DNA from: Roseivirga sp.
GTDB taxonomy: Bacteria; Bacteroidota; Bacteroidia; Cytophagales; Cyclobacteriaceae
NCBI GenBank assembly: GCA_029262895.1
Contig: JAJCYM010000030.1
Span: 1 to 54,769, forward strand
Direction of reading: 5' to 3'
DNA: 54,769 nucleotides
Shown: positions 34,585-54,769 of the stretch, in pieces
How positions within the stretch are numbered: position 1 is the first letter of the stretch
Layout: every line of letters begins with the position of its first letter
Program-made: the position numbers and the translations under genes
The notes under the pieces: generated by a model
Database searches by the model: none
The model's input: only the letters and a program-made list of their open reading frames with translations
What the model was told of the DNA's origin: nothing

Positions 34585-34599
34585 GTTAAAGTTGTATCA

Positions 34600-34740: not shown

Positions 34741-37167
34741 ATGCTCAAAAATTACTTCAAAACGGCAATTAGAAATCTGCGAAGGAACAAAACGTTTGCG
34801 ATCATCAACATTCTTGGTTTGATACTAGGTATCTCATCGACAATCGTTATTTACCGGATCGTAACCTTCGAAGAAAGTTTCGACACCTATCATGCTGATG
34901 CGGACCGGGTATACCGTGTAAACATTATGTATGAAAGTGATGGCGAGGAGGCTAACTCCACCTCAGTGATGCATCCACTGCGCCTGGCGCTTAGGAATGA
35001 TTTTCCTGATTGGAATGTTGCTGGTATCCATTGGTGGGATGCTGGGGTATTCTCAGTGGAAAATGCTCAGGGCATTGAAACCAAGATTCGTGAGACCAAT
35101 CCCATCGCTTTTGTAGGTTCGGACTTCTTCGAGATTTTTGACTTTGAGGTCATCGCTGGTGGAAAGGAGCAATTGCTCGCTGAACCGAATACCATTGCCA
35201 TGTCCGCCTCCTCGGCAGATAAATTGTTCGGATTGAATGGAAGTGGTTATCAAGAGATTATAGGTAGAACTGTCAAATTCGAAAATCAGCTCACGCTACA
35301 GATTGAAGCAGTTTACAATGACCCTCCTAAGAATACAGATTTTGACATCGACTATATGATGTTCTACGAAGGGGCAAAAATTTATCCTTATGCAGCCGAG
35401 CTTAAGAGTTGGCAGACGATCAACGGAGCTGCACGGTTATGGGTAAAATTACCCGAAGGACTTACAGAGGAAGCTGCTCAACAACAACTTAAGCAGGCCT
35501 CCTCAAAGTATCTTGAAGAACTAAAGAGCTTTGTCACTAATGGATATATGGCCTTGGAGCCTCTTTCGGGAATTCACTTGGATGAAGATTCTGGTTTGAG
35601 TGTTGTCGATAAAAGTGTCATTTCAAGTCTTACGGTTCTCGGTTTGATTTTAATCATCACTGCGGCAATCAACTTCGTTAATCTGGCAACAGCACAATCG
35701 GTCAAGCGTGCCAAGGAAATCGGAATTAGAAAGGTATTGGGAAGTAAGAAATCGCATCTAATCATTCAATTCTTATCTGAAGTATTCATTATCACCTTTA
35801 TCTCCTTAATTGCTTCCTTAGGTGTCAGTGAAGCAGTGCTAATGCAGCTAGAGCCAATTTTAGGCTACAACCTCGGTCTTAATTTATTGGCAGAACCAGG
35901 AATCGTTGGATTCTTGCTGCTACTCACCTTGGTAGTGACACTCTTATCTGGTTTTTATCCATCAATGGTTTTGGCGAATTACAATCCTGTAACCGCAATT
36001 AAAAGCAATAGTATGGCGTCCGGCTCAAAATCGAAAAGCATGTCATTGAGACGGGTGTTGGTTATCATTCAGTTCTTGATTTCACAAACTCTAATTATAG
36101 GAACATTGGTGATCGTGTATCAAATGAATTTTATGCTTAATAAGCCTTTAGGGTTTGATACGGAAGCCATTGTTACTTTTTCTGTTCCAGAACGCACGGA
36201 AGAAAAAATGAGTCTTCTGAGAAGTAGAATGCAAGAAGTTGCGGGGGTAGGAGATATTAGCTTCTATGTGGCATCGCCTGGTGTAGCTCGAACGAATAAC
36301 ATCGATCAGCTTAAGGATCCGAAGGGAGGAGGCGCGGAAATGATCAGAGCGAATCGTAAAAACGTGGATGATCAATATGCCGAACTCTTCGATCTTAAGA
36401 TTCTTGCTGGTGAATTTTTTCGCGAATCTTCTCCCAATGATAACTCGGTAATTAATAAAAAACTTGCCGAGAGTCTGGGATTTGAAAGTCCGGAACAGGC
36501 GGTTGGTCAACGCTATGAAACGAGCTTCGGACGAACATATATCATCACAGGTGTGGTAGATGATTTCCATAACAATTCTTTAAGAGGTGAGATAGACCCG
36601 GTTTTCATGATGAGCGGAACTTCACAATATTTTGAAGGGGGAGTAAAGTTGAATCTTAATGATGGCTTCAATGATGCTCTAACTAAGCTTGAAGAAATCT
36701 GGAGTGAGGTCTTTACGGCTGATGTATTCACTTATCAATTCATTGATGAAAAAGTCGTTCAGCAATATCAGTCTGAGCAACGAGTGACACAGTTGCTTCA
36801 AATATTTGCAGGCATTGCCATCTTTATTGGATGTCTGGGACTTTATGGTCTGGTTTCCTTTATGGCGAACCAGAAAATCAAAGAGATTGGTATAAGAAAA
36901 GTGCTGGGAGCCACGATTGGTAGTATCCTCGGTATTTTCTCCAGGGAAGTTCTGATTCTGGTCGCTTTTGCCTTTTTGATCGCAGCGCCTCTTGGGTATT
37001 ACCTGATGAATCAATGGTTAAGCAACTATGTCTACCAAATCAATATTGGGCCTGGAGTTTTTGCAATGGCTGTTGGTGCTACAGTGCTGATAGCTGCAGG
37101 AACTGTGGGTTTTCGATCAGTTAAGGCGGCATCTGCCAATCCTGTACAATCACTAAGAGACGAATAG
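34741..37167 (+). CDS. FtsX/MacB-type permease, array gene 1
   Basis: An 808-residue fused double-module ABC permease of the inner membrane. Module 1 has TM1 (about 19-43), a MacB_PCD-like periplasmic domain (45-290) and TM2-4 (293-415), with the coupling sequence RAKEIGIRKVLGS near 323. Module 2 has TM5 (437-461), a second periplasmic domain (465-680) and TM6-8 (682-800), with IKEIGIRKVLGA near 711, ending NPVQSLRDE. The ATG at 34741 (MLKNYFKTAIRNLRRNK) is preferred over an upstream TTG that lies only a few bases from the expected transcription start. It is the first gene after the sigma-54 promoter. The ATPase must come from elsewhere; substrate unknown. Confidence 0.9.
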   Translation: MLKNYFKTAIRNLRRNKTFAIINILGLILGISSTIVIYRIVTFEESFDTYHADADRVYRVNIMYESDGEEANSTSVMHPLRLALRNDFPDWNVAGIHWWDAGVFSVENAQGIETKIRETNPIAFVGSDFFEIFDFEVIAGGKEQLLAEPNTIAMSASSADKLFGLNGSGYQEIIGRTVKFENQLTLQIEAVYNDPPKNTDFDIDYMMFYEGAKIYPYAAELKSWQTINGAARLWVKLPEGLTEEAAQQQLKQASSKYLEELKSFVTNGYMALEPLSGIHLDEDSGLSVVDKSVISSLTVLGLILIITAAINFVNLATAQSVKRAKEIGIRKVLGSKKSHLIIQFLSEVFIITFISLIASLGVSEAVLMQLEPILGYNLGLNLLAEPGIVGFLLLLTLVVTLLSGFYPSMVLANYNPVTAIKSNSMASGSKSKSMSLRRVLVIIQFLISQTLIIGTLVIVYQMNFMLNKPLGFDTEAIVTFSVPERTEEKMSLLRSRMQEVAGVGDISFYVASPGVARTNNIDQLKDPKGGGAEMIRANRKNVDDQYAELFDLKILAGEFFRESSPNDNSVINKKLAESLGFESPEQAVGQRYETSFGRTYIITGVVDDFHNNSLRGEIDPVFMMSGTSQYFEGGVKLNLNDGFNDALTKLEEIWSEVFTADVFTYQFIDEKVVQQYQSEQRVTQLLQIFAGIAIFIGCLGLYGLVSFMANQKIKEIGIRKVLGATIGSILGIFSREVLILVAFAFLIAAPLGYYLMNQWLSNYVYQINIGPGVFAMAVGATVLIAAGTVGFRSVKAASANPVQSLRDE

Positions 37168-37178
37168 ATTAAAACAAC

Positions 37179-39590
37179 ATGGTCAGAAACTATTTTATAA
37201 CAGCATTAAGAAGCCTGCGAAGAAACAAAACATTCGCCTTCATCAATATCCTTGGTCTGGTATTGGGAATTTCAGGAACGGTTGTCATCTACCGAATTAT
37301 CTCGTTCGAACAGAGCTTTGATACCTACCATCAGAGTGTCGATCAGATTTATAGAATGGCTTTGCACCAAGAATCAGCTGGAGGAATAAACAAGGACATA
37401 TCCGTGCAGCATCCATTGGGAGTTGCCTTGAGAAATGACTTTCCTGATGCTACGATTTCTCGAATTCACTGGTATACGCCCGGGATTTTTAAGGTATCGA
37501 ATGATCAAGATGTAGCCAGAAAACTACGCATCACCGATGAAATGGCCTTTGTTGAAAATGAATTCTTTTCCATTTTCGACTTTAACGTTCTGGCTGGCAA
37601 TCCGGAACACCTATTGGATGAACCAAATACCATAGCCATCTCTGTGTCTATGGCCAACAAACTCTTCGATTTGAAGGGGGACGATTATCATTCAGTACTC
37701 GGAAAGACTGTGCAATTTGAGAACAAACTCACTTTGCGGGTGACTGGTGTTTATCAAGACCCACCCAAAAACACGGATTTCAATATTCATGCTTTAATGG
37801 AATATCAGGGTGCTAAGATTTACCCATATGCAGCGGAATTAACAAGTTGGAGAACTCGAAATGGAGATGCACGGTGTTATATGAAATTATCTCCAAATAG
37901 AACGGAAGAAGCTACTGAAAAGGAGCTTAGAGAAGTGACACCTAAATATATGTCTTCCAAAACTAGTAACAACTATTTTGCCCTACAGCCATTGAGGGAT
38001 ATCCATATGAGTGAAGAATATGGAGGAAATAGTGCTTTGGATCAATCTACCATAAGCAGTCTCAAAATGATCGCTGCGATTTTGATATTGACAGCTGTTA
38101 TCAATTTTATAAACCTTGCCACCGCTCAGTCTGTGAGGAGGGCTAAGGAAATTGGAATTCGAAAAGTACTGGGGGGACGCAAAGGACATGTGATGATACA
38201 GTTTTTGGGTGAAGTGTTTATTATTACCTGTATTGCCGTGGTTATTTCCCTTGGAATAAGCGAAGGCGCTTTGATGAAATTGGAGCCATTCCTGGGAAAT
38301 GATCTTAGTCTGAATATTCTATCCGAACCTTCAACAGCACTGTTTTTATTAATACTTGTGGTGGGAGTAACATTCCTGGCGGGATTTTATCCGGCATTGG
38401 TACTCTCTCGCTATAATCCGGTGGATGCTATCAAGAACAGTACATTGACACTGCAGAAGGGCAAGGGACTTTCTTTGAGAAGAGGGCTGGTCGTATTGCA
38501 ATTTTTGATTTCTCAGACATTGATTATCGGCACTTTGGTTGTTGTTTTTCAAATGGACTTTATGAAAAGTCAGCCTGTTGGCTTTCAGAAAGACAATATC
38601 TTGACATTCCCTATTCCCGACAACAAAAAGGAAAATCTGGACTTGTTACGCTCGCGTTTGGCTTCTATGTCCGCGGTTGAAGGTGCAAGTTTTTATATAG
38701 CCAGTCCTGGAGGTGCAAGATCAAACAATAGAGGTTCTGTTAGGTATAGAGAGGCTGAAGGATCATTTCGGGTAAACAGAAAAAATGTTGATGGGAAATA
38801 CGCACAAGTCTTCGATTTACAAATATTGGCTGGAGAATTCTTCAAAGACGATTCACCTTCCGACCATGCCGTTATCAATCGCAAGTTTGCTGAGAAGTTG
38901 GATTATGTTGATCCTTCTGAAGCAGTAGGTCAACGCTACAAAACATCCGGAGGCAAAAGCTACCTTATTGTTGGGGTTGTCGAAAATTTTCATAATCGAG
39001 CCCTGAGTGCTGAACTGGAAGCCATCCATATGATGAATGGCCCTACGCAGTACTTTGAAGCAGGTGTGAGAATATCTCCACAGTCAGATGTTAGTCCCAT
39101 TATTAGCCAAGTGGAGGACATATGGAATAGCATATTCACTGAAGATGTTTTCGTACACAAGTTTTTGGATGACAACATTGCAGCTGAATATGAAAGAGAA
39201 GAGCGTGTATCACAACTCTTTCAAGTATTTGCAGGCATGGCGATTTTTATCTGCTGTCTGGGACTTTATGGATTGATTTCATTCATGGCCAATCAAAAGG
39301 TCAAAGAAATAGGGATCAGAAAAGTGCTAGGAGCAACGGTATCGAGTATCGTGATGATATTCTCCAAAGAAGTAGTCATGCTTGTTGGTTTGGCCTTCGT
39401 ATTGGCTGCACCACTGACTTACTATGTAATGGATGGGTGGTTGAGTAATTACTTCTATCGAATTGATATCGGAGCCGCCATTTTCATCATAGGAATCGCA
39501 GCAACTGCAATTATTGCAATGCTCACAGTTGGGTCACGCGCTTTCAAAGCAGCATCTGCAAATCCAGTAGAATCTTTAAGAGACGAATAA
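37179..39590 (+). CDS. FtsX/MacB-type permease, array gene 2
   Basis: An 803-residue double-module permease, the closest relative of array gene 1. Both share NKTFAxINILGLxLGIS, the periplasmic stretch DPPKNTDF and AKIYPYAAEL, and FMANQKxKEIGIRKVLGAT. It ends NPVESLRDE. The 11-base spacer before it (ending aaaacaac before ATGGTCAGAAA) is nearly repeated before gene 3, pointing to tandem duplication. Two coupling sequences are intact (RAKEIGIRKVLGG and VKEIGIRKVLGA). Confidence 0.9.
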   Translation: MVRNYFITALRSLRRNKTFAFINILGLVLGISGTVVIYRIISFEQSFDTYHQSVDQIYRMALHQESAGGINKDISVQHPLGVALRNDFPDATISRIHWYTPGIFKVSNDQDVARKLRITDEMAFVENEFFSIFDFNVLAGNPEHLLDEPNTIAISVSMANKLFDLKGDDYHSVLGKTVQFENKLTLRVTGVYQDPPKNTDFNIHALMEYQGAKIYPYAAELTSWRTRNGDARCYMKLSPNRTEEATEKELREVTPKYMSSKTSNNYFALQPLRDIHMSEEYGGNSALDQSTISSLKMIAAILILTAVINFINLATAQSVRRAKEIGIRKVLGGRKGHVMIQFLGEVFIITCIAVVISLGISEGALMKLEPFLGNDLSLNILSEPSTALFLLILVVGVTFLAGFYPALVLSRYNPVDAIKNSTLTLQKGKGLSLRRGLVVLQFLISQTLIIGTLVVVFQMDFMKSQPVGFQKDNILTFPIPDNKKENLDLLRSRLASMSAVEGASFYIASPGGARSNNRGSVRYREAEGSFRVNRKNVDGKYAQVFDLQILAGEFFKDDSPSDHAVINRKFAEKLDYVDPSEAVGQRYKTSGGKSYLIVGVVENFHNRALSAELEAIHMMNGPTQYFEAGVRISPQSDVSPIISQVEDIWNSIFTEDVFVHKFLDDNIAAEYEREERVSQLFQVFAGMAIFICCLGLYGLISFMANQKVKEIGIRKVLGATVSSIVMIFSKEVVMLVGLAFVLAAPLTYYVMDGWLSNYFYRIDIGAAIFIIGIAATAIIAMLTVGSRAFKAASANPVESLRDE

Positions 39591-39601
39591 ATCAAAACGA
39601 C

Positions 39602-42001
39602 ATGGTCAGAAATTATTTAATTACAGCATTCAGAAACTTAGCCAGAAACAAGGTTAATACTACAATCAATGCACTTGGTTTAACACTTGGAATCACTTGC
39701 TCTTTGGTGATTTTCCTTGTTGTCAGATATGAATTGAGTTTTAACCAGCACTTTGAAGACTCTGACCGTATCTATCGCGTCATCTCGCTACAAGAAAGTG
39801 AGGAGGGAGAATCCACAGAGGCCTCGATGCAATTCCCATTCGTGACTGGTTTCAAAAGTGAGTTTTCAGATATACCTGCCACATTTATCCACAATAATAT
39901 GGCGCCACCAACTTTTTTTATTGAAAAAGGTGGCGAACGGGTGCGCTTTCAGGAAAGTGGGAACCATGCAGCTTATGTACATCCTGATTATTCAGAAATC
40001 TTCAGCCATGACTGGATATTTGGAAATCCCCAATCCGCTTTGTCTGACCCTAATTCTATCGTTCTCACCCGAAAAATGGCCAGCAAGCTTTTCGGAAAGA
40101 CAGACGTTGTTGGCGAAGTAGTTGAGTTGAATGGCAGGGACATGCAGATCACCGGTGTATTAGAGGACTATCCTCAAACAACAGATTTTCCAATCGATAT
40201 TTTTATTTCAATTGAATCGAGTGGACAATATGCGAGTGACGTAAGCTCAGGTAACTGGGGGTCTGTTTATGGAGCGGTAAATGCTTACATCAAGCTTCCA
40301 GAGGGAATGACACAGTCATCCTTAGAGTCTCGTCTTCAAGGTTTTGATGAAAAGTTAAATCAATCATTAGAAGATGGAGAAAAGATGACTCGATTGCTTC
40401 AACCTCTTAGTGATTTACATTACAATGTTGACTTAGGCAATTATGCAAGACGGACCATTGATAAATCCAATCTCTGGGCAATGGCTGTTATTGGAATTCT
40501 CCTCTTGGTAGCCGCTTGTATCAATTTCATCAATTTGAACACCGCTCTTGCGGTAAGAAGATCGAAGGAGGTTGGAATTCGAAAAGTACTTGGAAGCAGT
40601 CGTAAAAGTCTGGTTATCCAGTTTATGGGGGAGACTCTTATTGTGACATTCATTGCCTTGTTGATCTCGTTTGGAGGAGTAGAATTGGCCCTGATCAACT
40701 TGAAGTCATACCTAGGCTATGACCTCCAATTCAACTTGTTTGAGGATTCACAAGCCGTACTCTTTTTAGGAATTACGTTTGTATTTGCTGTCGTCTTTTC
40801 TGGATTGTACCCATCATTTGTTTTGGCATCTTATAAGCCTATCGCAGCCATTCGAAACAAAATTACTACCGAGAAACAAGGCTCGTTTTCACTTCGAAAA
40901 GTATTGGTGACAACACAGTTGATGATATCACAGGCATTAATAATTTGTACCGTGATTATACTTCAACAAATGGATCACTTTTACAATGCACCAATAGGCC
41001 TCGATAAAGATTCCATAATAGAAATTTCCGTACCTGGAGGGCAGGTTGAAAATCATAGATTGATGAAGTCCAGAGCACTTCAAATACCAGGAATAGAGAG
41101 TGTTACCAGAACCAATAGTGGTGCCATTTCAGGTAATGTTTGGTTTGGAGGATATGACCTTCAAATGGACGGAGAAACCATAGAAAAGAGCAGTGAAGTA
41201 AAGTTCATAGATAAAGACTTTTTACAAACTTATGGCATAAAGCTGTTGGAAGGTACTAATGTACTGGAAAGAGATAGCTTGAAAAGCTTCATAGTCAATG
41301 AGCAATTGCTAAAAGAAATTGGGATTACCGATTACAATGAGGTCTTAGGAAAGCCCTTCTCATTTTGGAGCCATAGTGGTCATATTGGAGGTGTAGTAGC
41401 GGATTATAATACCCAATCACTTCACGCTTCCATCCAACCTTTAGTGATGGTTTTTAATGAAGGCTATGGAAGTATGGCCCTTAAATTCAAAACCCAAGAT
41501 ATTAGATCGCTTCTTAGCTCCTTAGGGGAGACGTACACCGAGATTTTTCCTGAAAGAGATTTCAATCCTCGTTTTCTTGATGAGACACTTGCCAATTTTT
41601 ATGAAGAAGAACAGAAGGTCTCTACACTTTTTCAAATCGCAGCCGGCATTGCTATTCTTATTGGTTGTATCGGTATGATTGGGTTGATATCCTACATTGC
41701 TCAGCAAAAAATAAAGGAAGTAGGGATAAGAAAGGTACTTGGTGCAAGTATCTCTAGTATCCTATTGCTCTTCTCAAGACAGTTCTTAGTCTTTACATTT
41801 TTAGGGTTTGCTATCGCAGCCCCGTTCGCTTATTACCTGATGAATAGCTGGCTTCAGGGCTTTGAGTCCAGAGTAGACATTGGTGTAGATGTATTTGCTC
41901 TTGGACTTATAGTTACGGCTTTGTTAGTGATATTGTCTGTAGGCATCAGAGCATACAAATCGGCTACAATTAATCCAGCACAATCCCTTAGATCAGAGTA
42001 A
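39602..42001 (+). CDS. FtsX/MacB-type permease, array gene 3
   Basis: A 799-residue double-module permease. It starts MVRNYLITAFRNLARNK and ends NPAQSLRSE; the coupling sequences are RSKEVGIRKVLGS and IKEVGIRKVLGA. The first periplasmic domain is clearly diverged from genes 1 and 2 (for example MAPPTFFIEKGGERVRF) while the membrane parts remain alike, so the extracytoplasmic domains may bind different partners. The spacer to gene 2 is 11 bases. Confidence 0.9.
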   Translation: MVRNYLITAFRNLARNKVNTTINALGLTLGITCSLVIFLVVRYELSFNQHFEDSDRIYRVISLQESEEGESTEASMQFPFVTGFKSEFSDIPATFIHNNMAPPTFFIEKGGERVRFQESGNHAAYVHPDYSEIFSHDWIFGNPQSALSDPNSIVLTRKMASKLFGKTDVVGEVVELNGRDMQITGVLEDYPQTTDFPIDIFISIESSGQYASDVSSGNWGSVYGAVNAYIKLPEGMTQSSLESRLQGFDEKLNQSLEDGEKMTRLLQPLSDLHYNVDLGNYARRTIDKSNLWAMAVIGILLLVAACINFINLNTALAVRRSKEVGIRKVLGSSRKSLVIQFMGETLIVTFIALLISFGGVELALINLKSYLGYDLQFNLFEDSQAVLFLGITFVFAVVFSGLYPSFVLASYKPIAAIRNKITTEKQGSFSLRKVLVTTQLMISQALIICTVIILQQMDHFYNAPIGLDKDSIIEISVPGGQVENHRLMKSRALQIPGIESVTRTNSGAISGNVWFGGYDLQMDGETIEKSSEVKFIDKDFLQTYGIKLLEGTNVLERDSLKSFIVNEQLLKEIGITDYNEVLGKPFSFWSHSGHIGGVVADYNTQSLHASIQPLVMVFNEGYGSMALKFKTQDIRSLLSSLGETYTEIFPERDFNPRFLDETLANFYEEEQKVSTLFQIAAGIAILIGCIGMIGLISYIAQQKIKEVGIRKVLGASISSILLLFSRQFLVFTFLGFAIAAPFAYYLMNSWLQGFESRVDIGVDVFALGLIVTALLVILSVGIRAYKSATINPAQSLRSE

Positions 42002-42007
42002 ACAACT

Positions 42008-44437
42008 ATGCTTAAGAATTATATAACCACCGCATTCAGAAATTTAAAAAGGAACAGGACCTATACTTTCATCAACGTATTTGGTCTGGCCTTAGGCATC
42101 AGCTCGGCATTGATCCTTTTCAAATTCATTAATTATCATAAAAGTTTTGATGCAGATCAAAGCAACTATGATAGGCTCTATCGTTTCGTCAGACATGAAA
42201 TTAGTGCCAATAGTATTGATAAAGATATGGGCATGCCTGTTCCTTTTTTAAAGGCATTCAAGAATTACTACCCGGATTTGGGTACAGCAGCGATTATTAA
42301 TTACGCGGAGGAGGGCCAATTCACAGTGACCAATGAACTTGGCAACAAATCAAAGTTTATGGAGCGCGGTGGTATTGCCTTTGTCGAGGAAGACTTCTTT
42401 GAACTCTTTGATATTGAGATGATTGTTGGGGACAAAGAGACCGCTCTGGACAATCTGGATCAAGTGATTTTATCGGAGAGTTTGGTAGAGAAGTATTATG
42501 GTTTTACCGGAACAAACGTGGCCTCTGCCTTGGGTAAAATGATCACGCTTGACAGCAAGGTGGATTTGATGATTTCCGGGGTTATGAAGAATAACCCTAA
42601 AAACTCGGACTTGCCAATAAGTGCATTGACCACCTTCAAATCAGCAAATAGCGACATATTTCCTCTTTTTGATGAAGAAGCTTGGGGAAGTGTGAGCTCA
42701 AGCACAAATGTTTACTTTCTGAAGAATGATGGAGTGAGCGAGGCCGATATTGAGACCAAACTCAAAGAAATTGTGGCTAAATATCAACCAGAGCAGACGG
42801 AAACCGAAGAGTACCATTTACAACGATATGGAGATGTTCATTTTGACATTTCATATGACAGCCACGGTGATCAGCGGGTTAGCAGACAACTGCTGGTTGG
42901 TTGTGCGATTGTAGCCATTATTTTGATTTTGACCGCTTGCATCAACTTCATTAATCTGGCTACGGCCCAAGCAGTCAAACGTGCCAAAGAAGTAGGCGTA
43001 AGGAAAGTGTTGGGTGGAAGCAAATCGCAATTGGTGAATCAATTTATGAGCGAGACTTTGCTCATCACCCTGATTTCTGTTGTGCTTTCGTTAGGTGTGG
43101 CAGAACTGGTGCTCAACAAATTAGACCTGTTGCTTGACTACAGACTCACCCTCGACTTATTGAACGATCCTGCAATGCTCGTTTACCTCGGGCTTATTAT
43201 CATATCGGTCACCTTGCTTTCCGGTATTTACCCATCTTTCGTATTGTCCTCTCTCAATCCTGTTGCTGCCATGAAACGCACCATGAACAGCAAAGTGTCA
43301 GGTAAATTTAATTTGAGAAGAGGCCTGGTGATTACACAATTCTTTATTTCTCAATTCCTCATCATTTGTACACTGGTAGTCATCTCTCAAATGAGGCATT
43401 TTTATAGTGCTGATATGGGTTTCAGCAAGGAATCAATCGTGAGCTTTAATATGCCTGAGCCCAACTTCAAGAATGGTCAATTGCTTAAGAGCAGGTTGGA
43501 AAGCAACCCCAATATTGAAAGTATCAGCTTTCATGTAGGAGCACCGCTCTCCGAGAATAATTTGGGCTCAAATTTTAATTATGCACCACTAGCCAACGAC
43601 ACGGACTTCGATGCTCAATTCAAAATTATTGACGACCAATACCTGGAGCTGTTTGGCATTGAACTGCTTGCGGGAAGAAATCTACGCGCTACTGACACCT
43701 TGTTGGTCAATGCCATGATTACGGAAACTGTGATGAAAATGATTGGCATTCAAGATCCAAATGAAGCCATTGGAATTAAAGTGAATACTGGTTTTAATGG
43801 AGATAAGACGATAGTGGGAGTGGTAAAGGATTTTAACGCGCATTCTTTAAAATCGGAGATGACACCACTTTTTCTGATCGGCTTTCCGAGCTTTAATTTT
43901 GAAGGAGCTATTAAGGTTTCCGGGGATGATGCCATGAGGAAAAGCACAGTTGCTGCGCTGGAAAAGGAGTGGAATGACATTTTTCCAGCCTACACATTTG
44001 AACCTTCTGTTTTTGAAGAAACCATCAAGGCCAATTATGAACAGGAGGCTGATTTGCTGGTGCTCTTTCAGATATTTTCGGGCATAGCCATATTTATCGG
44101 TTGTCTCGGTCTCTATGGTCTGATTTCCTTTATGGCCAATCAGAAAACCAAGGAAATAGGAGTGAGAAAAGTGCTGGGCGCTTCGGTAAAGCAGATTCTG
44201 AACATTTTCTCCAAAGAACTATTGCTGCTTATAGCACTTGCCTTTATAGTCGCGGCACCCCTTGGTTATTTTGCCATGGATAGGTGGTTGATGGACTTTG
44301 AATACAATATTTCCATCCAGATTTGGATGTTCGTAGTGGCCATACTTTTTACCCTGATTATTGGTGGTTTGACCACCAGCTTAAGATCATTTATAGCCGC
44401 CAAAGCTAACCCAGTAGATTCATTAAGGTCAGAATAA
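42008..44437 (+). CDS. FtsX/MacB-type permease, array gene 4
   Basis: An 809-residue double-module permease, the longest complete member of the array, starting 6 bases after gene 3. It begins MLKNYITTAFRNLKRNRTYTF and ends NPVDSLRSE. Coupling sequences are RAKEVGVRKVLGG and TKEIGVRKVLGA. It groups with genes 1-3 by its C-terminal half (FIGCLGLYGLISFMANQK). The loop before TM2 (YDSHGDQRVSRQ) has no counterpart in its neighbours. Confidence 0.9.
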   Translation: MLKNYITTAFRNLKRNRTYTFINVFGLALGISSALILFKFINYHKSFDADQSNYDRLYRFVRHEISANSIDKDMGMPVPFLKAFKNYYPDLGTAAIINYAEEGQFTVTNELGNKSKFMERGGIAFVEEDFFELFDIEMIVGDKETALDNLDQVILSESLVEKYYGFTGTNVASALGKMITLDSKVDLMISGVMKNNPKNSDLPISALTTFKSANSDIFPLFDEEAWGSVSSSTNVYFLKNDGVSEADIETKLKEIVAKYQPEQTETEEYHLQRYGDVHFDISYDSHGDQRVSRQLLVGCAIVAIILILTACINFINLATAQAVKRAKEVGVRKVLGGSKSQLVNQFMSETLLITLISVVLSLGVAELVLNKLDLLLDYRLTLDLLNDPAMLVYLGLIIISVTLLSGIYPSFVLSSLNPVAAMKRTMNSKVSGKFNLRRGLVITQFFISQFLIICTLVVISQMRHFYSADMGFSKESIVSFNMPEPNFKNGQLLKSRLESNPNIESISFHVGAPLSENNLGSNFNYAPLANDTDFDAQFKIIDDQYLELFGIELLAGRNLRATDTLLVNAMITETVMKMIGIQDPNEAIGIKVNTGFNGDKTIVGVVKDFNAHSLKSEMTPLFLIGFPSFNFEGAIKVSGDDAMRKSTVAALEKEWNDIFPAYTFEPSVFEETIKANYEQEADLLVLFQIFSGIAIFIGCLGLYGLISFMANQKTKEIGVRKVLGASVKQILNIFSKELLLLIALAFIVAAPLGYFAMDRWLMDFEYNISIQIWMFVVAILFTLIIGGLTTSLRSFIAAKANPVDSLRSE

Positions 44438-44450
44438 ATAAAAAAAGGTC

Positions 44451-46829: not shown

Positions 46830-46841
46830 AACCCAGAAACC

Positions 46842-49187
46842 GTGTTTAGAAATTATGTAACCCTAATATTAAGAAAATTTAAAACCGAGAGGTTCTTTAG
46901 TCTCCTGAACATTTTGGGATTATCGATAGGGGTTACTGCTTTCATTCTCATTGGTTCCTTTGTACAATACCATCTGAGTTTTGATGATTTTCATGTAGAT
47001 AAGGATCGCATTCAAATGATGACCTCCCGATCTCAAAATCAATATGGAGAAAGATTGTCTGGCTATTCAAACTTAGTTATTGGTGATTTAATTAAAGAGA
47101 GTATTCCTGGTGTGGAAGTGTATCAGACTATAGGAGCAGGAGAATCTTTAATTAGCGCAAATGGGAATTCCTTTTATGAAGAAGAAGTCATCTATTCAGA
47201 TCCATCATTATTTTCATTTTTTAGTTTCGGGATGATTGAAGGTAACCCGAGACAAGCACTGTCAGATCAAAATCGGGTTATCATTACTGAAAGAATTGCT
47301 AAGCGATTGTTTGGCTCTAAAAATGCAATTGGAGAAGAATTAAAAATTGAAAAAAAGACATATTTAATTGCAGCGATTGCTCAAAACCCACCTGAGAATA
47401 GCCACATCACCTTTGGAGTTGTTCTTCCATGGATTGAATATGATAGGACAAGCCCTGATTTTTGGAGAAAGAATTGTCTGAATTATTTAAAGTTCGACAA
47501 GAATTTGGAAATGGCATCCTCTCAAAGAGCTATTACGGAATTATTAGAGAATAAAATACCTCAACATCTGGAAGGCCGCGATATTGGATATACTGCTTTA
47601 AAAGACATCCATCTTAATGGTGAACTAGAGGCCAGCCTCAAGCCGAGTTTGGACAAAAGGTATGTCTATCTATTCATGACGATAGCCATTTTTTTATTGA
47701 TGATTGCTTCTTTCAACTATGTGAATTTAGCAACAGCATTATCTGTTAAACGAGCCAAGGAAGTTGGACTTAGAAAGACTTTAGGGGCATCTCGGGGGCA
47801 GATAGTCAATTATTACTTGACAGAATCACTGCTGATAACTTTTGTGGCTGTGGTTTTGGCCTTTGCCATTGCAGAAAGGATGCTTCCAATTTTCAATGAT
47901 TTTCTTAAGATCAATCTTGAACTTCACTACTTCAGTTCTCAATTTTTCATTTTGACAATTGGCTTGTCTTTGCTACTCGGTATCATGTCAGGTATTTACC
48001 CTGCATTTTATTTGTCACGATTCTCACCACTTAATGCCTTTAGAGGAGGCAAAGACATAAAGAGTAAAGGTAGATTCAAAAAGGTGGCAGTGATTAGCCA
48101 ATTTTTCATAACTCAATCCTTGATCATTGGGACTATAATTATTCAAAGTCAACTCAACTACCTTCAAACTAAAGATTTGGGGTATGAAAGAGAACAACTT
48201 CTTTACTTAAATACTCACGGTGAGATTCGGGGAAAGGGAGAACTGATGAAGGCTGAACTACTTACGATTTCAGGTGTAAATGATGTTTCAATGAGCTTTG
48301 GAATTCTTGATCATAGTTCAACTCTTGTTATTCCTATAAGTGCAGTTGAGGATAATGAAAACTTGGACGGGTATTCACACTTGATACTTCAGAATATTGG
48401 TGCTGATAAGGATTTTGTACAGGCAATGGGTATGAAGATTATTGCTGGAAATAATTTTGATCAATTAGAGTTCTCGAATAATAAACGCAAAGTTTTAATA
48501 ACTGAAACAACAGTGAGAAAATTAGGATGGGAGGAACCTCTCGGAAAGTCTATCAGTGGTATGATGGTAATAGGTGTTGTTAAGGATTTTCATTACAAAT
48601 CTTTGAAAGATGAATTGTTTCCAACGGTTATACAATTTCGTTCTAGTGCATCCACTTATGCTAACCTTAAAATATCATCAGCAAATACAAAGGAAGTACT
48701 TAAACAAATAGGAGCAGTTTGGGATCAATTTATTCCGGAAAGACCTTTTGAATATGAATTCTATGATGATAAATATGACAAGTATTACAGGTCTGAAAGT
48801 AGATTAGCTACGCTCTTTTACATTTTTGCGGGGCTGTCAATTACTATTTCTCTGCTAGGTTTGGTTGGACTTTCCACGTTCTCTGTTCAGCAAAGAATGA
48901 ATGAAATTAGCATTCGAAAAGTACTGGGAGCTACTTTCAAGAGCATTCTATTTATGCTGTCTAAAGGCTATCTTGGTTTGATTCTAATAGGTTTTGTCTT
49001 AGCAGTACCAATTCTATATTACTTTATGAATCAGTGGCTTGATAACTTCAAATATAGGATCGAATTGAGTCCCACAGTTTTTGTGTTGGCGATTGTCCTG
49101 ACGCTCGCCTTTACCATGTCAACAGTGGTATTTAGAAGTTGGAGAATAGCAAAGCAAAATCCAGTAGACACATTAAGAAATGATTAA
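46842..49187 (+). CDS. FtsX/MacB-type permease, array gene 6 (GTG start)
   Basis: A 781-residue double-module permease. It begins with GTG at 46842, read as MFRNYVTLILRKFKTERFFSL, aligned with the family start. It ends NPVDTLRND. Coupling sequences are RAKEVGLRKTLGA (Thr where the others have Val) and MNEISIRKVLGA, which lacks the usual KEIG. By eye its base composition is more AT-rich than the flanking genes. It pairs with gene 7 in sequence (SGIYPAFYLSRFSPLNAF versus AGYYPAFRLSKLSPTNAI) and the spacers before both contain aaaacccaga. Confidence 0.88.
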   Translation: MFRNYVTLILRKFKTERFFSLLNILGLSIGVTAFILIGSFVQYHLSFDDFHVDKDRIQMMTSRSQNQYGERLSGYSNLVIGDLIKESIPGVEVYQTIGAGESLISANGNSFYEEEVIYSDPSLFSFFSFGMIEGNPRQALSDQNRVIITERIAKRLFGSKNAIGEELKIEKKTYLIAAIAQNPPENSHITFGVVLPWIEYDRTSPDFWRKNCLNYLKFDKNLEMASSQRAITELLENKIPQHLEGRDIGYTALKDIHLNGELEASLKPSLDKRYVYLFMTIAIFLLMIASFNYVNLATALSVKRAKEVGLRKTLGASRGQIVNYYLTESLLITFVAVVLAFAIAERMLPIFNDFLKINLELHYFSSQFFILTIGLSLLLGIMSGIYPAFYLSRFSPLNAFRGGKDIKSKGRFKKVAVISQFFITQSLIIGTIIIQSQLNYLQTKDLGYEREQLLYLNTHGEIRGKGELMKAELLTISGVNDVSMSFGILDHSSTLVIPISAVEDNENLDGYSHLILQNIGADKDFVQAMGMKIIAGNNFDQLEFSNNKRKVLITETTVRKLGWEEPLGKSISGMMVIGVVKDFHYKSLKDELFPTVIQFRSSASTYANLKISSANTKEVLKQIGAVWDQFIPERPFEYEFYDDKYDKYYRSESRLATLFYIFAGLSITISLLGLVGLSTFSVQQRMNEISIRKVLGATFKSILFMLSKGYLGLILIGFVLAVPILYYFMNQWLDNFKYRIELSPTVFVLAIVLTLAFTMSTVVFRSWRIAKQNPVDTLRND

Positions 49188-49206
49188 GCGCTAAAACCCA
49201 GAGACT

Positions 49207-51609
49207 ATGTGGACAAACTATTTTAAACTGGCTGTTAGACGAATGAAAAGAGAAAAGCTCTTTTCAGTTTTGAATATTTCAGGTTTGACCATAGGCGTAA
49301 CTGCCTTCATTTTAATCTCTCTCTATGTTCGTTATGAATTGAGTTTTGATAAGTTTCACAGCAAGGGAAAACAGATATATGCACTGACACAGCATGTACA
49401 GTCTTTGAACGGGGAAGCTTTTTGGGAGCGCTTTTCGGTGAAGGGAGCCTCAGTAATGCGGTCTAAGATTCCGGAACTGAAAATGATGACTCAAATCCGA
49501 ATCGATGACAACAACGATCTTGTGACAATCGGCCAGGAGAAGTTTTACGAAAGTAAAGTGCTTCAGACCGACAAGAACTTCCTCGAAGTTTTTGACTTTC
49601 AATTATTAGAGGGTAGCAATCAATTGGATGAGCCCTATAAATCAATCATTACTGAAAGCACTGTGACCAAGTATTTTGGTGCCGCTGATCCATTAGGTCA
49701 ATTACTAAAAATAGAAGATGAAGGAGAATTTGAAATAGTTGGAATAATAAAGAATCCTCCTGCAAATTCTCATATCAGTTTTAGTATCATCATTTCGAAC
49801 CACCATTTTGTCAATGCTAGAATAAACGATGCAGCATCACGCGATCAATGGGGTCCTGTGGCAAGCAATTTTGTGTTATTGCCGGAAGGAGTCGATATAG
49901 GCAGTGTGGAGGGCAAAATGGCGGAGGTTCAGCTAAGTGACTTTCCTGAATCCATGGCCACCAAGGCAGTTAATGGGGAAGTGGAGACGCAGATAGAGCT
50001 TTTTCCATTTTTGGACATCCATTTGAACTCAGGCTTTAGTTGGTCAATGAGCCCTGTGAATGACATCAGTTATATCTACCTGTTCTCATTTATAGGCATT
50101 CTCATACTGGCCATTGCCTGCTTTAACTATATCAATTTGGTAACCGCAAGATCCATAAAAAGAGCCAAGGAAATTGGCTTGAGAAAGGTGATTGGGGCAC
50201 AGCGCAAACAAATCATTTTGCAGCAAATGACCGAGGCTTTTGCCTTTACTTTTTTGTCGGTTTTTTTGGCCTTCGCCATTGCCGAACGATTGCTGCCATA
50301 TTATAGCAATTTAGTCGAACAGGATTTAGCGCTTACCTACGGCAGTGCTGAGTTTTTTGTATTCATTTTTGGGTTGAGTCTTGTTGTGGCTCTTCTGGCA
50401 GGTTACTACCCGGCCTTTCGGTTGAGTAAGCTCAGTCCTACAAATGCCATTAAAGGAGCCAGCTCTGGCAAGGGGAAATCAACCATGAGAAGAGGTCTCG
50501 TGCTCTTTCAATTTCTCATTGCACAGGCCTTGATTATCACAACTTTTGTCATTCAATATCAACTTCACTATCTGCAGACAAAGTCCTTAGGCTATGACAG
50601 GGAGCATGTATTGTACATTGATGCTAAAGAAGAACTTCAAGGGAAAAGGAAGGTTTTCCATTCAAATCTCAGTGCCATTCCGGGTGTGAAGTCCATTTCG
50701 TTTTCTAATAATATTTTGTCGTCAACGGGCTTGGCTTTTTTTAAGCTTAATGAAATAGAAGGATTTGAGGATGCTCCTGCCAGCGAGATGGTCATTGCTG
50801 ACCTCTGGCATATCGATAGCGCCTATACATCCACAATGGGTATGAAGATGCTCGTATACGGCACTTCTAATGCCGCCCTGGGGGAGGTAGAAAATCAAAT
50901 GATTATCACCGAGTCTACAACACGAAAGATGGGCTGGGAGAATGATGCCATAGGCAAGCAATTAGAATTATGGGGCAAGCTCAGGACTGTAGTAGGAGTT
51001 GTTGAAGATTTCCATAATGGGTCATTAAAGAATGAAATGCGGCCGGCCTTTATGCTTCTTGATAGTCGAACATGGATGTATGTGAGCATCAAAGTAGACG
51101 CTGCAGATGTTATGCAAACAATGGATGCAATCGAACAGGAATGGGCCGGTTTGGTTGATGGTATACCTTTGGAATTTCAGTTTTATGATGATTACTACAA
51201 TGCTCAATATGACAAGGAAATAAGGCTTGGAAGTATTTTTAATGTTTTTGCCACAATCGCTATTGGCATCTCAATTTTGGGTCTTATAGGCCTTACAACC
51301 TATTCTGCTGAACAGAGACTGAAGGAGTTTGGCATTAGAAAGGTACTTGGAGCAAGACTGTCACAACTGGTTTTTTTGCTGTCAAAAGAGTTTTTGGCCT
51401 TGATATTACTTTCTTTTCTGGTTGCCTGTCCAATTACATATTTTGTGATGAGCGATTGGTTGACAGCATTTGCTTACCGCATTGACATTGGTGCATTTAT
51501 CTACATTCTGGCTCTCGCAAGCGCGGCCATTATAGCCTTACTGGCAGTTGGCCTCCAATCTGCGAGAGTAGGGAGTCTCAATCCATCTGAAATCCTAAGA
51601 AACGAATAA
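49207..51609 (+). CDS. FtsX/MacB-type permease, array gene 7
   Basis: An 800-residue double-module permease with a 19-base spacer upstream, the longest in the array. It starts MWTNYFKLAVRRMKREKLFSV and ends NPSEILRNE. Coupling sequences are RAKEIGLRKVIGA and LKEFGIRKVLGA. It is closest to gene 6. The second TM group reads LIGLTTYSAEQR, like the lone permease at 17286-19811 (LFGLAAFSAEQR). Confidence 0.9.
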   Translation: MWTNYFKLAVRRMKREKLFSVLNISGLTIGVTAFILISLYVRYELSFDKFHSKGKQIYALTQHVQSLNGEAFWERFSVKGASVMRSKIPELKMMTQIRIDDNNDLVTIGQEKFYESKVLQTDKNFLEVFDFQLLEGSNQLDEPYKSIITESTVTKYFGAADPLGQLLKIEDEGEFEIVGIIKNPPANSHISFSIIISNHHFVNARINDAASRDQWGPVASNFVLLPEGVDIGSVEGKMAEVQLSDFPESMATKAVNGEVETQIELFPFLDIHLNSGFSWSMSPVNDISYIYLFSFIGILILAIACFNYINLVTARSIKRAKEIGLRKVIGAQRKQIILQQMTEAFAFTFLSVFLAFAIAERLLPYYSNLVEQDLALTYGSAEFFVFIFGLSLVVALLAGYYPAFRLSKLSPTNAIKGASSGKGKSTMRRGLVLFQFLIAQALIITTFVIQYQLHYLQTKSLGYDREHVLYIDAKEELQGKRKVFHSNLSAIPGVKSISFSNNILSSTGLAFFKLNEIEGFEDAPASEMVIADLWHIDSAYTSTMGMKMLVYGTSNAALGEVENQMIITESTTRKMGWENDAIGKQLELWGKLRTVVGVVEDFHNGSLKNEMRPAFMLLDSRTWMYVSIKVDAADVMQTMDAIEQEWAGLVDGIPLEFQFYDDYYNAQYDKEIRLGSIFNVFATIAIGISILGLIGLTTYSAEQRLKEFGIRKVLGARLSQLVFLLSKEFLALILLSFLVACPITYFVMSDWLTAFAYRIDIGAFIYILALASAAIIALLAVGLQSARVGSLNPSEILRNE

Positions 51610-51617
51610 GGAAGGTT

Positions 51618-53963
51618 ATGCTTAGAAATTACATTCTTGTTTTGGTTAGAAATATGCGTAAGCATTGGTCTTATACATTGATCAATATTATAGGCCTGGC
51701 TACGGGTATTGCATGTTTTGTATTGATTGCCCTTTTCGTTCGGGACGAACTTACATTTGATAAGTTCCATGAAAAGGGAGATAGAGTCTTCCGTATGTTG
51801 TCTAACGTGAAAAACATGGAAGGCACACTTCAGGTGCCCAACGCTTTGGCCGGTGTTTTGACAGAAAGATTTCCTGAAGTTGAAAGCGTAGTCCGCATGG
51901 ATTTTGCAAAGAAGGCCATTGAATATAAGGAAGAAGTAATATATGAGCAGGGCTTCTATTATGCAGACCCGAGCCTTTTTGATGTATTTGATTTCGACTT
52001 GGCCCAGGGAAACCCGAAAACCGCCTTGGATGCACCGAATAAGATAGTTTTGTCAGAAGAGATGGCAGAGAAGTATTTCCCTGATCAAAGCCCCATGGGT
52101 AATGTGCTGCGCTTTAGCAATGACTCTACAAGCTATCAGGTAACTGGGGTGCTGTCACCAATCCCCCAAAATTCCAGGTTTAATTTTAGCTTTATCACTC
52201 CTTTTTCTGGACTCCCGGATGCGCGATCTGGCAGAGATCAATGGGAGACACTCGATGCCACATATTATGTCCTTTTCAAGAATGAAAATCAGGATATTGA
52301 GGCTTTTTCAGATAAGGTAGTCTCTGTCTATAAAGAGCAAGAATTGGTCTACCTGCCTCTTATCGAATCTTTTGAAGGATTGTATTTGAACAGCGACTAC
52401 AGTTTCACACCAAGCAATGTAAACGGAGAGAGAAAGACGATCGTTACTTTTTCAATCATTGGAGTATTGATTTTAGTGCTGGCCTGCATCAATTACGTGA
52501 ATTTGACCACCGCCAAGATGACCGTAAGGGCTGGAGAGATCGGGGTGAGAAAGGTATTTGGAGCGGGCAGAAGGGACATCAGAATTCAGTTTTTATGCGA
52601 GACCATGGCCTATGTCTTGTTGGCGGTTATAATTTCATCTGGTTTGGTGGAATATTTCCTGCCCCACATCAACGAACTTACTAATAAGCAGATTACGCTT
52701 AACTATTGGAGTGATCCATGGATACTTCCATTCCTCATATTTCTGGTGCCATTTATTGCTTTTTTGGCCGGGTTCTACCCTTCAATGATCCTGTCAGTAC
52801 TAAAGCCGGTGCTCGTTTTGAAATCTAACACCACAGTCGGTGGAAAAATGTTGCTACGCAAGGCTTTGGTCACATTTCAGTTTGCTATTACGCTTATGCT
52901 GATCATCAGCACCATTATTATGAATAATCAGTTCAGACATTTTATGGATTTCAAGGGTGGCATTGACAAAGAGCATCTGGTGCGAGTTGGAAGTGGAAGC
53001 ATGGTTAGAGAAAAATTTGATCTGCTGAAAAATGAGTTTGAAAGAATCCCAGGAGTTGTGGATGTCATTGGAGGACCATTCGGTAGTTTAGGTGGGTTGT
53101 TTCCATTAAGGTCAGAGAACATTGAAGGTGGAAGCACTTATATAAACTTTTTAGCCGTTTCGACCAACTACCCTGAAGTCATGGGCCTGAAGTTAAAAGA
53201 AGGCAGGAATTTCTTGCCTGATAGTGAGTCAGATTTTTTGAATTCCGTTTTGATCAACGAAGCATTGGCCAAAGAGCTTGGCTGGGAAAATCCGGTGGGT
53301 ATGAAAGTAGAAACCGTGACAGACAATTTCAAAATATCAGAGCGTACAGTAATCGGTGTGCTGGAAGACTTTAGTTATAATGCCAAAAGACTGCCCGACA
53401 AGTTGGTGGTCCAGCCTTCAAAAAGATTTTATCAGATGTCTGCCAAGTTGCAAGGCACGAATTTAAATGAGACCATGGCTGCCATTCAGCAAGGGTGGGA
53501 GGAGATTAATCCGGGAGTACCTTTTGAGTCCCAATTCCTGGATGAACATATCCAAAATTTCTATGAAAGAGAGTCGAAGTTCAGTACTCTTTTTAATGCC
53601 TTTTCAACCTTGGCAATTTTGATTGCCATACTTGGCTTGGTTGGATTATCGGCTTATAATACCTCCAAAAGAGCCAAGGAAATTGGGGTCAGAAAAGTCC
53701 TTGGAGCATCTTTTATGGACATCATTAAAATCCTGAGCAAAGGCTATATCGGACTGGTGATTTTGGCATTCCTGATAGCGGTTCCCATCAGTTACTTCTT
53801 TGTCGACAATTGGATGAAAGACTTTGCTAATCGAATTTCTATTGGCGTTTCCCATTACGCACTGGGAGTGATTATATCACTTTTAGTGGTGTCAATATCT
53901 ATTGGTTATCAGTCGATTAAAGCGGCCAGAATCAATCCTGTAAATCTTTTAAGAAACGAATAA
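51618..53963 (+). CDS. FtsX/MacB-type permease, array gene 8
   Basis: A 781-residue double-module permease, 8 bases after gene 7. It starts MLRNYILVLVRNMRKHWSYTL and ends NPVNLLRNE. The first coupling sequence is unusual, VRAGEIGVRKVFGAGRRD, while the second is standard (AKEIGVRKVLGA). The first-half divergence may alter how this half meets an ATPase. The second periplasmic domain contains GGPFGSLGG, not seen in the others. Confidence 0.9.
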   Translation: MLRNYILVLVRNMRKHWSYTLINIIGLATGIACFVLIALFVRDELTFDKFHEKGDRVFRMLSNVKNMEGTLQVPNALAGVLTERFPEVESVVRMDFAKKAIEYKEEVIYEQGFYYADPSLFDVFDFDLAQGNPKTALDAPNKIVLSEEMAEKYFPDQSPMGNVLRFSNDSTSYQVTGVLSPIPQNSRFNFSFITPFSGLPDARSGRDQWETLDATYYVLFKNENQDIEAFSDKVVSVYKEQELVYLPLIESFEGLYLNSDYSFTPSNVNGERKTIVTFSIIGVLILVLACINYVNLTTAKMTVRAGEIGVRKVFGAGRRDIRIQFLCETMAYVLLAVIISSGLVEYFLPHINELTNKQITLNYWSDPWILPFLIFLVPFIAFLAGFYPSMILSVLKPVLVLKSNTTVGGKMLLRKALVTFQFAITLMLIISTIIMNNQFRHFMDFKGGIDKEHLVRVGSGSMVREKFDLLKNEFERIPGVVDVIGGPFGSLGGLFPLRSENIEGGSTYINFLAVSTNYPEVMGLKLKEGRNFLPDSESDFLNSVLINEALAKELGWENPVGMKVETVTDNFKISERTVIGVLEDFSYNAKRLPDKLVVQPSKRFYQMSAKLQGTNLNETMAAIQQGWEEINPGVPFESQFLDEHIQNFYERESKFSTLFNAFSTLAILIAILGLVGLSAYNTSKRAKEIGVRKVLGASFMDIIKILSKGYIGLVILAFLIAVPISYFFVDNWMKDFANRISIGVSHYALGVIISLLVVSISIGYQSIKAARINPVNLLRNE

Positions 53964-53974
53964 ACTCAAAGGTC

Positions 53975-54769
53975 ATGTTCAAAAACTTAATATCAACAAC
54001 GCTAAGATCACTCAAGAAAAGCCCAAGTTTCACAATAGTGAATGTGCTGGGTCTTTCGGTAGGTATCGCAGCATTTGTCTTAATCACGGTGTTTGTCCGT
54101 GATGAATATACTTACGACAAGTTTCATAAGAATCATGAGCGTATTTATCGTGGCATGACCAAATATGAGCAGGGTTTTGTAATGGGTGTGGCTGACAAGC
54201 TTATCGATCTAATGAAGCAAGACCTTCCTGAGGTGGAGGCACTGGCAAGACTCAATTTCGGAAGCACTGTAGTCATGAACTATAATGGTGAAAAGGTCTT
54301 CGAACCAGAGGTTTATAATGCCGATCCGCAAGTCTTTGAGGTTTTCGATTTCTCCTTGAAATATGGAGACGAGGCCGAGGCATTGAGAACACAGAACGCT
54401 GTTGTGATTTCGAGCTATATGGCCATGAAATATTTTGGAAAAGAAGATGTTGTTGGGGAGATATTTAAAACGGCCAATGACGACAAAGGCAAGATTATCA
54501 CTGGCGTACTGAACGAAATTCCGGGAAATTCAAGATTCAAATTTAATGTATTAATGCCCCATCCTGAGAAGGTTGCCAACCCGAATGACCTCTGGGAAGC
54601 TTCAGGGTTAATGTATTTCCTATTGACAAATCCAGTGAATGAAGACGAGTTTTCTGCTCGCCTAATGGATTTGGCTGAGAAAAATGGTTACGAGCAGAAG
54701 GGAACAACCTTTATGGTAGAAAACTATGGAGAACTCTACCTCAATAGCACTTGGTCGTTCACGGCATCA
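53975..54769 (+). CDS. FtsX/MacB-type permease, array gene 9 (cut by window edge)
   Basis: The first 265 codons are visible, starting MFKNLISTTLRSLKKSPSFTI, with TM1 (about 20-43, VNVLGLSVGIAAFVLITVFV), the conserved DKFHKNHERIYR and most of the first periplasmic domain (AVVISSYMAMKYFGKEDVVG, LNEIPGNSRFKFNVL). The spacer to gene 8 is 11 bases. The coupling sequences and second module lie outside the window, so intactness is unknown. Confidence 0.88.
   Translation, partial: MFKNLISTTLRSLKKSPSFTIVNVLGLSVGIAAFVLITVFVRDEYTYDKFHKNHERIYRGMTKYEQGFVMGVADKLIDLMKQDLPEVEALARLNFGSTVVMNYNGEKVFEPEVYNADPQVFEVFDFSLKYGDEAEALRTQNAVVISSYMAMKYFGKEDVVGEIFKTANDDKGKIITGVLNEIPGNSRFKFNVLMPHPEKVANPNDLWEASGLMYFLLTNPVNEDEFSARLMDLAEKNGYEQKGTTFMVENYGELYLNSTWSFTAS

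Follow-up and report, generated by a model that had tools for sequence, protein, structure and literature searches.

Contig C30 (JAJCYM010000030.1), the whole of which forms the window analysed here (54,769 nucleotides), belongs to a 5.79 Mb draft genome of Roseivirga sp. (GCA_029262895.1), and its right-hand part is occupied by a tandem array of genes for FtsX/MacB-type permeases. The original observation of a tightly packed run of such genes agrees with the listing of open reading frames (ORFs), which gives eight complete plus-strand permease ORFs and a ninth truncated at the contig end, with intergenic gaps of 6–19 nucleotides. G, C and L numbers denote genomes, contigs and loci, respectively, and G000 is the genome of the window ("own genome"). 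The genes of the array are as follows.

34741..37167, plus strand: array permease 1, with duplicated MacB_PCD and FtsX (ORF, NCBIfam, Pfam; the ORF is listed from a TTG at 34729, and 34741 was taken as the start)
37179..39590, plus strand: array permease 2 (ORF, NCBIfam, Pfam)
39602..42001, plus strand: array permease 3 (ORF, NCBIfam, Pfam)
42008..44437, plus strand: array permease 4 (ORF, NCBIfam, Pfam); AlphaFold2 model nearest to E. coli YbbP among solved structures
44451..46829, plus strand: array permease 5 (ORF, NCBIfam, Pfam)
46842..49187, plus strand: array permease 6 (ORF, NCBIfam, Pfam)
49207..51609, plus strand: array permease 7 (ORF, NCBIfam, Pfam)
51618..53963, plus strand: array permease 8 (ORF, NCBIfam, Pfam)
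53975..54769, plus strand: array permease 9, N-terminal part (265 codons in the window; the rest is on contig C99, L048:2-1552)

Domains, fold and extent of the permease array

Two modules per gene had been proposed, and Pfam recognised two FtsX stretches as well as MacB_PCD in all eight complete genes, with a second MacB_PCD stretch above threshold in only six; the gene-9 fragment matched MacB_PCD alone. For all eight complete genes the top NCBIfam match was ADOP (TIGR03434), at 240–297 bits against a curated cut-off of 622.3 bits that none of the own-genome matches listed reached, and the runner-up was DarB (NF038008), at 91–134 bits against an equivalog cut-off of 700. The ADOP matches were full-length or nearly so, and the long profile matches together with synteny rule out chance ORFs. 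ADOP stands for orphan, acidobacterial duplicated permease, and some genomes, including ones of Acidobacteria, carry duplicated FtsX/MacB permeases by the dozens. Copy numbers of 28 and 33 are given for such permeases in two Dyadobacter (PMC11573002). The original statement that no described system was known is therefore too strong for the parts, since the permease family is known from ADOP and DarB. No description of the array layout was found in the open-access literature searched; the present analysis adds how far the array reaches, its reading as two operons with sigma-54-type control sequences, and its named partners.

An AlphaFold2 model of gene 4, built from 22 sequences (predicted local distance difference test 77.9; predicted template modelling score 0.71), falls into two halves. 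Each half starts with a long helix and also has a mixed periplasmic domain and three more long helices, the first two of which are separated by a short helix. The best solved match in Foldseek was YbbP (9ge6; E 5e-21, template modelling (TM) score 0.47, root-mean-square deviation 10.9), followed by MacB, a Streptococcus permease, BceB and LolCDE; because the deviation is high, the relative placement of domains in this comparison is not trusted. The periplasmic domain resembles 3is6 of Porphyromonas gingivalis (TM score 0.67–0.71 by target). YbbAP is described as a single pseudosymmetric permease with two coupling helices and two ATPase subunits, in which YbbP has ten helices through an extra pair in the middle (PMC12646458). 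YbbAP(-TesA) is thus similar in being the best fold match of the model and in having a single permease with two coupling helices, whereas the ten helices of YbbP differ from the two four-helix halves of the model. Judged from sequence and model, the array permeases display the trait of type VII transporters (MacB, LolCDE, FtsEX and YbbAP), namely FtsX-type four-helix halves with a coupling helix between the second and third transmembrane helices. Two coupling sequences per permease had also been noted, and among the aligned permeases of the window array, a second array on contig C93 and seven relatives the coupling-helix Glu is retained in 108 of 110 N-halves and 109 of 109 C-halves.

At the right edge of the window contig C30 ends, but the array does not. 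On C99, the first ORF (516 residues) aligns to residues 266–781 of gene 8 and the gene-9 fragment to residues 1–266, and because the two complement each other along gene 8, C30 and C99 appear to abut within about a codon. C99 carries ten more permeases after the ORF that completes gene 9, and its genes right of the array match the right-hand neighbours in relatives by size, strand and order. Provided that C30 and C99 abut, as alignment and synteny indicate, the array has 19 genes; the nine originally counted are those in the window, with eight complete and one cut. The sequence to the right, which had been proposed as a place to look for an ATPase, continues the array, and PF00005 had no match on C99. 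A contig artefact is ruled out, as the array runs on into C99 and is found whole in relatives. The same locus holds 17 permeases in G008 and in G010, 15 in G005, 8 in G002, 7 in G001 and in G011, and 5 in G003, giving a range of 5–19 across eight Roseivirga genomes. All eight carry at least five consecutively at this locus, and not just the scattered single copies that would have told against the original interpretation. The second array of the own genome (G000:C93:85-41062; L038, L039, L097) comprises 17 permeases, is truncated at the contig start, and adjoins its own sigma-54 regulator and kinase.

That the array lacks ATPase and adaptor genes also holds: a Pfam search gave no PF00005 match on C30, C93 or C99, and phmmer searches of ten array regions, with the HlyD-type adaptor, the outer-membrane efflux protein and the two ATPases described below as queries, matched no ORF of at least 90 residues at E 1e-3. 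Permeases that need no ATPase, and instead scaffold or regulate envelope enzymes, for instance, would fit the absence of PF00005 from C30 and C99, and the family is called orphan since its ATPase genes are non-adjacent. We nevertheless regard such a role as very improbable, because both coupling helices are retained and because relatives link such permeases to ATPases.

A rapidly built tree with 111 members (110 array permeases, C93 included, and a single permease of the window) contains old paralogue groups common to the species, with gains and losses. Between paralogues of the window array the periplasmic domains are 20–21% identical compared to 37–43% for the FtsX domains, in keeping with the contrast already noted of conserved membrane parts and divergent periplasmic parts; in C93 the corresponding values are 22% and 31–35%. 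Non-synonymous difference between G008 and G010 was higher in the periplasmic domains in 15 of 15 pairs (15 of the 17 genes, matched by position, with the domain ranges of gene 4 used for all), but the last four pairs, at 46–56% identity, may not be orthologous, and the tree shows this for at least two of them. The ratio of non-synonymous to synonymous substitution rates (dN/dS) was 0.026–0.071 in the 5 of 15 pairs with finite dS, and dS was saturated in the other ten. The truncated first array gene of G010 (574 codons) and the variable gene number could suggest functionless tandem duplicates in decay, a reading that we reject on dN/dS and to which we give practically no credence: none of the eight complete genes in the window is interrupted, and the 64-nucleotide spacing of regulatory sites described below is kept at 15 of 16 operons. 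The array permeases are not decayed, and it is unlikely that they are truly orphan.

Control sequences and regulators

The following features lie to the left of the array.

34593..34631, plus strand: paired enhancer-like site TGTATCAAAAACAAAC-N7-TGTATTGAAAACAAAC (pairs at 16 of 16 operon starts examined)
34695..34710, plus strand: sigma-54-type −24/−12 promoter TTGGCAT-N5-TTGG (pattern match)
33211..34584, minus strand: divergent sigma-54-dependent response regulator with receiver, AAA+ and Fis-type helix-turn-helix (Pfam domains)
31753..33108, minus strand: histidine kinase-like protein (HATPase_c, Pfam), adjoining the regulator

Across eight loci, the paired site TGTATYAAAAACAAAC...AAAACAAAC occurs both before the first gene and in a mid-array gap of 124–205 nucleotides, in 16 of 16 cases; in one G003 site the second half reads TATATC. 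Using a loose pattern, we found that a promoter-like element begins 64 nucleotides past the paired site in 15 of the 16 operons of the eight Roseivirga genomes, while the spacer of the sixteenth (G002 start) is shorter by one base. Twelve of these 15 promoters are exact matches to TGGCAY-N5-TTGS, and the remaining three (G001 start, G001 mid and G011 start) are off by one or two positions. When as many as three mismatches were allowed, the paired site had two matches in the own genome, both at array operons, against zero in a control, and the promoter pattern alone had 88 against 20 in its control. A promoter-to-permease check that covered 57 of the 88 sites and 52 of 67 plus 23 of 74 permease frames, with estimated starts, placed five promoter sites close to a permease start. 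The stricter pattern TGGYAY-N5-YTGC matched in 1 of 20 intergenic stretches, at the C93 start, the −12 element here being mostly TTGG. The C93 array starts with the promoter TGGCAT-N5-TTGC and lacks the paired enhancer of the window array.

By eye, six of eight mid-array gaps have a hairpin followed by T's between enhancer and promoter. Because the mid-array gap combines such a hairpin with an enhancer and a promoter, the array of the own genome may comprise one operon of 10 genes and another of 9, and because the hairpin stands between the enhancer pair and the promoter, one operon seems to end within the control region of the next. Terminator-like hairpins lie at L048:3976-4093 and in the mid-array gaps of relatives. 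With a −24/−12 promoter, upstream activator sites and an AAA+ activator gene nearby, the array has the predicted makeup of sigma-54-controlled operons.

Each of the seven relatives has a divergent gene of 457–458 codons at the array locus, and the five relatives' regulators that were compared, those outside G010 and G011, are 81–94% identical to the window regulator. Regulator domains were checked in the window and in C93, and the kinase by Pfam in the own genome. The regulators of C62, C93 and the array share 56–60% identity with one another. The kinases at window positions 31753-33108, L097:2612-3976 and L104:434-1783 match HATPase_c, with no HisKA match in Pfam at E 0.001.

A single gene of the same family lies elsewhere in the window.

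17286..19862, minus strand: lone permease of this family, carrying a sigma-54-type promoter at 19862-19847 (profile and promoter match)

Since this promoter overlaps the listed TTG start, the true start must be further inside the ORF.

Candidate ATPases, adaptor and channel

The own genome contains at least 141 permease frames (67 genes and 74 from a second list, with eight FtsX matches in frames of less than 480 codons dropped), a number that includes genes cut at contig ends and FtsX permeases adjoining their own ATPase, such as those on C57 and C79. Many of these permeases occur in frames of about 870–900 codons, and one on C19 (L115:10165-13154) follows a 112-codon ORF; a similar pair in Adhaeribacter swui is annotated as a helix-turn-helix regulator and an ABC transporter permease.

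PF00005 has 46 matches in the genome, and two ATPases are candidate partners of the array. The first, ATPase2, is encoded on C62 between an HlyD-type adaptor and an outer-membrane efflux protein that is TolC-like; this set is flanked on its left, two genes away, by a sigma-54 regulator and a kinase, and the start of the adaptor ORF contains TGGCATTCTTGTTGA, a near match to the promoter. The second, the hub ATPase (224 residues), follows one permease of the family on C79. Seven of the 46 PF00005 matches resemble it at E 1e-30 or better, few beside the permease frames, of which there are at least 141, and it is 52% identical to ATPase2. DarD (NF038007) is the top NCBIfam match of both (283 bits for ATPase2 and 236 for the hub ATPase, cut-off 375), and that of the C62 adaptor is DarC (NF038010; 165 bits, cut-off 450), the adaptor passing the general RND_mfp cut-off. 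Regular expressions recovered Walker A, Q-loop, signature and Walker B in both ATPase types and, with the exception of a single hub member, the H-loop. In a tree of 46 ATPases, the hub ATPases group in a single clade of 26 rows (100/100), next to ATPase2-type sequences; the tool flagged long branches elsewhere in this tree. Further ATPases of the LolD/MacB type are encoded on C48, C57 and C91.

The hub ATPase is 89–98% identical in 11 other Roseivirga genomes and was not found at that level in G009, which is 84% complete and gave three weak permease matches. All 12 Roseivirga loci have a sigma-54-type promoter 5′ of the hub ATPase, and in nine of them the preceding ORF is a recognised permease. 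Upstream of the permease preceding the hub ATPase, L109:11335-12573 encodes a protein with matches to PycTM (Pycsar effector) and HD.

To assess co-occurrence, we searched 197 genomes of the class for gene-4-like permeases (E 1e-40 or better) and for both ATPases (E 1e-80 or better), scoring the top 5 candidates per genome for the permease and 14–15 for the ATPases. The permease was detected in 30 genomes, ATPase2 in 31 and the hub ATPase in 14. ATPase2 was present in all 30 permease-positive genomes and in one of the 167 others (G147), and the hub ATPase in 14 of the 30 and none of the 167 (Fisher p of 1e-34 and 1.5e-13, respectively); as the genomes of a class are related and kinship is uncorrected, these values overstate independence. 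By a loose first-look count, at least 15 permease candidates occur in 14 genomes, 13 of which have the hub ATPase, the exception being G117; G120 has it despite only eight candidates. The hub ATPase thus tracks high permease number (Mann–Whitney p 0.0002, or 0.0004 minus the own genome, again uncorrected for kinship).

We then read 15 stretches. One is from G117, and the others are centred on 14 hub ATPases from genomes other than Roseivirga, namely G016 and each of the 13 remaining hub genomes in the class sample. The order HlyD, ATPase2, permeases and hub ATPase occurs in G107, G153, G120, G056, G094 and G177, which hold 8, 9, 2, 7, 4 and 4 permeases, respectively, with other ORFs interspersed in some (up to 450 codons between the permeases of G107). 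Of these six loci, G107, G153 and G120 have a TolC-like gene after the hub ATPase and G056 has one on the far side of HlyD; none was recognised in the stretches of G094 and G177. A regulator resembling that of the window is found at the locus edge in G153, G120, G056 and G177, and the strict promoter pattern precedes HlyD in G107. At 9 of these 14 loci the immediate neighbour of the hub ATPase is a permease. The hub ATPase follows permeases in G201, G124 and G016, with no ATPase2 in the stretch read (in G201 and G124 ATPase2 lies elsewhere on the hub contig); it is accompanied by a TolC-like gene and no permease in the stretches of G032, G163 and G209; and with the queries used here, neither was found beside it in G019 and G204.

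Among genomes with the permease and no hub ATPase, 20 stretches from 15 of 16 were read, G072 being left out. ATPase2 adjoins one to four permeases in 14 of these (G073, G057 twice, G092, G205, G125, G049, G075, G113 twice, G080, G175, G117 and G214), and HlyD stands alongside in 10 of the 14. Four more stretches (G068, G205, G049 and G117) place ATPase2 beside a permease by the positions of search matches and not by ORF picking, whereas ATPase2 is on a different contig in G058 and some kilobases off in G159. The G117 stretch from the hub-locus reading likewise has ATPase2, then permeases. A plasmid record of Parabacteroides distasonis (L164) encodes an ATPase 70% identical to ATPase2, then four permease frames, one of them short.

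These joined loci bear on an alternative in which the arrays are modules for sensing or for damage response, of the BceAB–BceS kind, and the permeases, on binding envelope-active compounds, pass a signal to the kinase instead of exporting. An equal-sized divergent regulator gene at all eight Roseivirga loci and the BceB chains among the Foldseek matches would suit such modules. HlyD and TolC-like genes are, however, part of the joined loci, 19 sensors converging on one kinase would be unlikely, and the array permeases differ from the architecture of BceB, which has ten helices and one extracellular domain; we therefore judge this possibility to be improbable.

A proposed dispersed exporter with shared ATPases

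Taken together, we consider it likely, while well short of certain, that the array supplies alternative permeases for a single dispersed type VII ATP-binding cassette (ABC) exporter, related to DarBCD and MacAB-TolC, that shares remote ATPases. Each fused permease, with two four-helix halves, two periplasmic domains and two coupling helices, would be a complete membrane part, driven in trans by the shared DarD-like ATPase2 of C62 and the derived hub ATPase of C79. The linkage in other genomes and the co-occurrence suggest that array permeases may assemble with these ATPases and with the adaptor and channel; a LolD-like ATPase dimer, as type VII transporters use, would accordingly be a candidate partner. 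The sensor kinase and sigma-54 regulator of the window would turn on both array operons via the paired enhancer sites, and the periplasmic domains, which are most variable between paralogues, may determine the cargo that is exported or extracted from the membrane. The original suggestion of alternative permeases sharing a remote ATPase thus gains from the co-occurrence and the joined loci, except that there are two candidate ATPases and not one.

Compared to known systems, the array genes resemble ADOP in being duplicated MacB_PCD/FtsX permeases in many copies with no adjacent ATPase in the window, and differ in scoring below its cut-off, in belonging to Bacteroidota, in forming arrays of up to 19 and in having relatives with adjacent ATPases. 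The darobactin exporter DarBCD likewise combines a duplicated permease with an HlyD-type adaptor and a LolD-like ATPase, whereas the array system scores below the DarB, DarC and DarD cut-offs and has many permeases per ATPase, a second ATPase and sigma-54-type control; adaptor and ATPase genes of the DarBCD type are not in the window and are found on C62 and in the joined loci of other genomes. MacAB-TolC shares the periplasmic core and FtsX domains, as well as the HlyD and TolC-like genes of joined loci. MacB, in which the ATPase is fused to the permease (PMC5985334), forms a homodimer, whereas in the array system one gene encodes both permease halves and the ATPases have genes of their own.

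Several observations weigh against a shared exporter of this kind. The ten array regions themselves hold no ATPase, adaptor or channel. A search of the own genome for the paired enhancer elsewhere, which might have tied in the hub ATPase or C62, recovered only the two array operons, and as the enhancer is confined to these, neither the hub ATPase nor C62 shares it. Sixteen of 30 permease-positive genomes are without a hub ATPase, including G117 with its 41 first-look candidates, and in G147 ATPase2 occurs although no permease matched. At 5 of 14 hub loci no permease adjoins the hub ATPase, and outside Roseivirga the strict promoter occurs just 5′ of it only in G032 and G209. The case is also weakened by G009, whose lack of the hub ATPase and few weak permease matches fit the reading but come from a genome only 84% complete, and by the other LolD/MacB-type ATPases of the genome, which are possible partners as well.

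ATPase2 alone, or another LolD/MacB-type ATPase, might drive the array permeases, with the hub ATPase of Roseivirga serving only its neighbouring permease. The presence of ATPase2 in all permease-positive genomes versus 14 of 30 for the hub ATPase, its coupling with one to four permeases in hub-less genomes and the additional ATPases on C48, C57 and C91 are consistent with this. We think it unlikely, given that the hub ATPase closes whole arrays of up to nine permeases in other genomes and accompanies high permease counts.

Within the preferred reading of one exporter with shared ATPases, a more tentative and rather doubtful extension is that ATPase2 and the hub ATPase form a heterodimer, one on each of the unlike permease halves, as a universal motor for more than 100 permeases per genome, and that gain of the hub ATPase enabled their expansion. 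A hint comes from the N-half coupling motif, which is tight in hub genomes (Glu 98%, next Gly 90–94%) and looser in hub-less genomes (81% and 59%). In the C-half motif, Glu, Arg and the second Gly are at 99–100% in all groups, but other positions loosen in hub-less genomes too (Gly 48%, Leu 54%), and both effects might stem from kinship and overall divergence.

One shared ATPase is known for some sugar importers; to our knowledge, ATPase sharing is not known for this kind of exporter. With partner ATPases, adaptor, channel and regulator now named, the orphan question becomes testable, and if our reading is correct, the permeases of Roseivirga would belong to a modular exporter in which one motor serves a large set of permeases.

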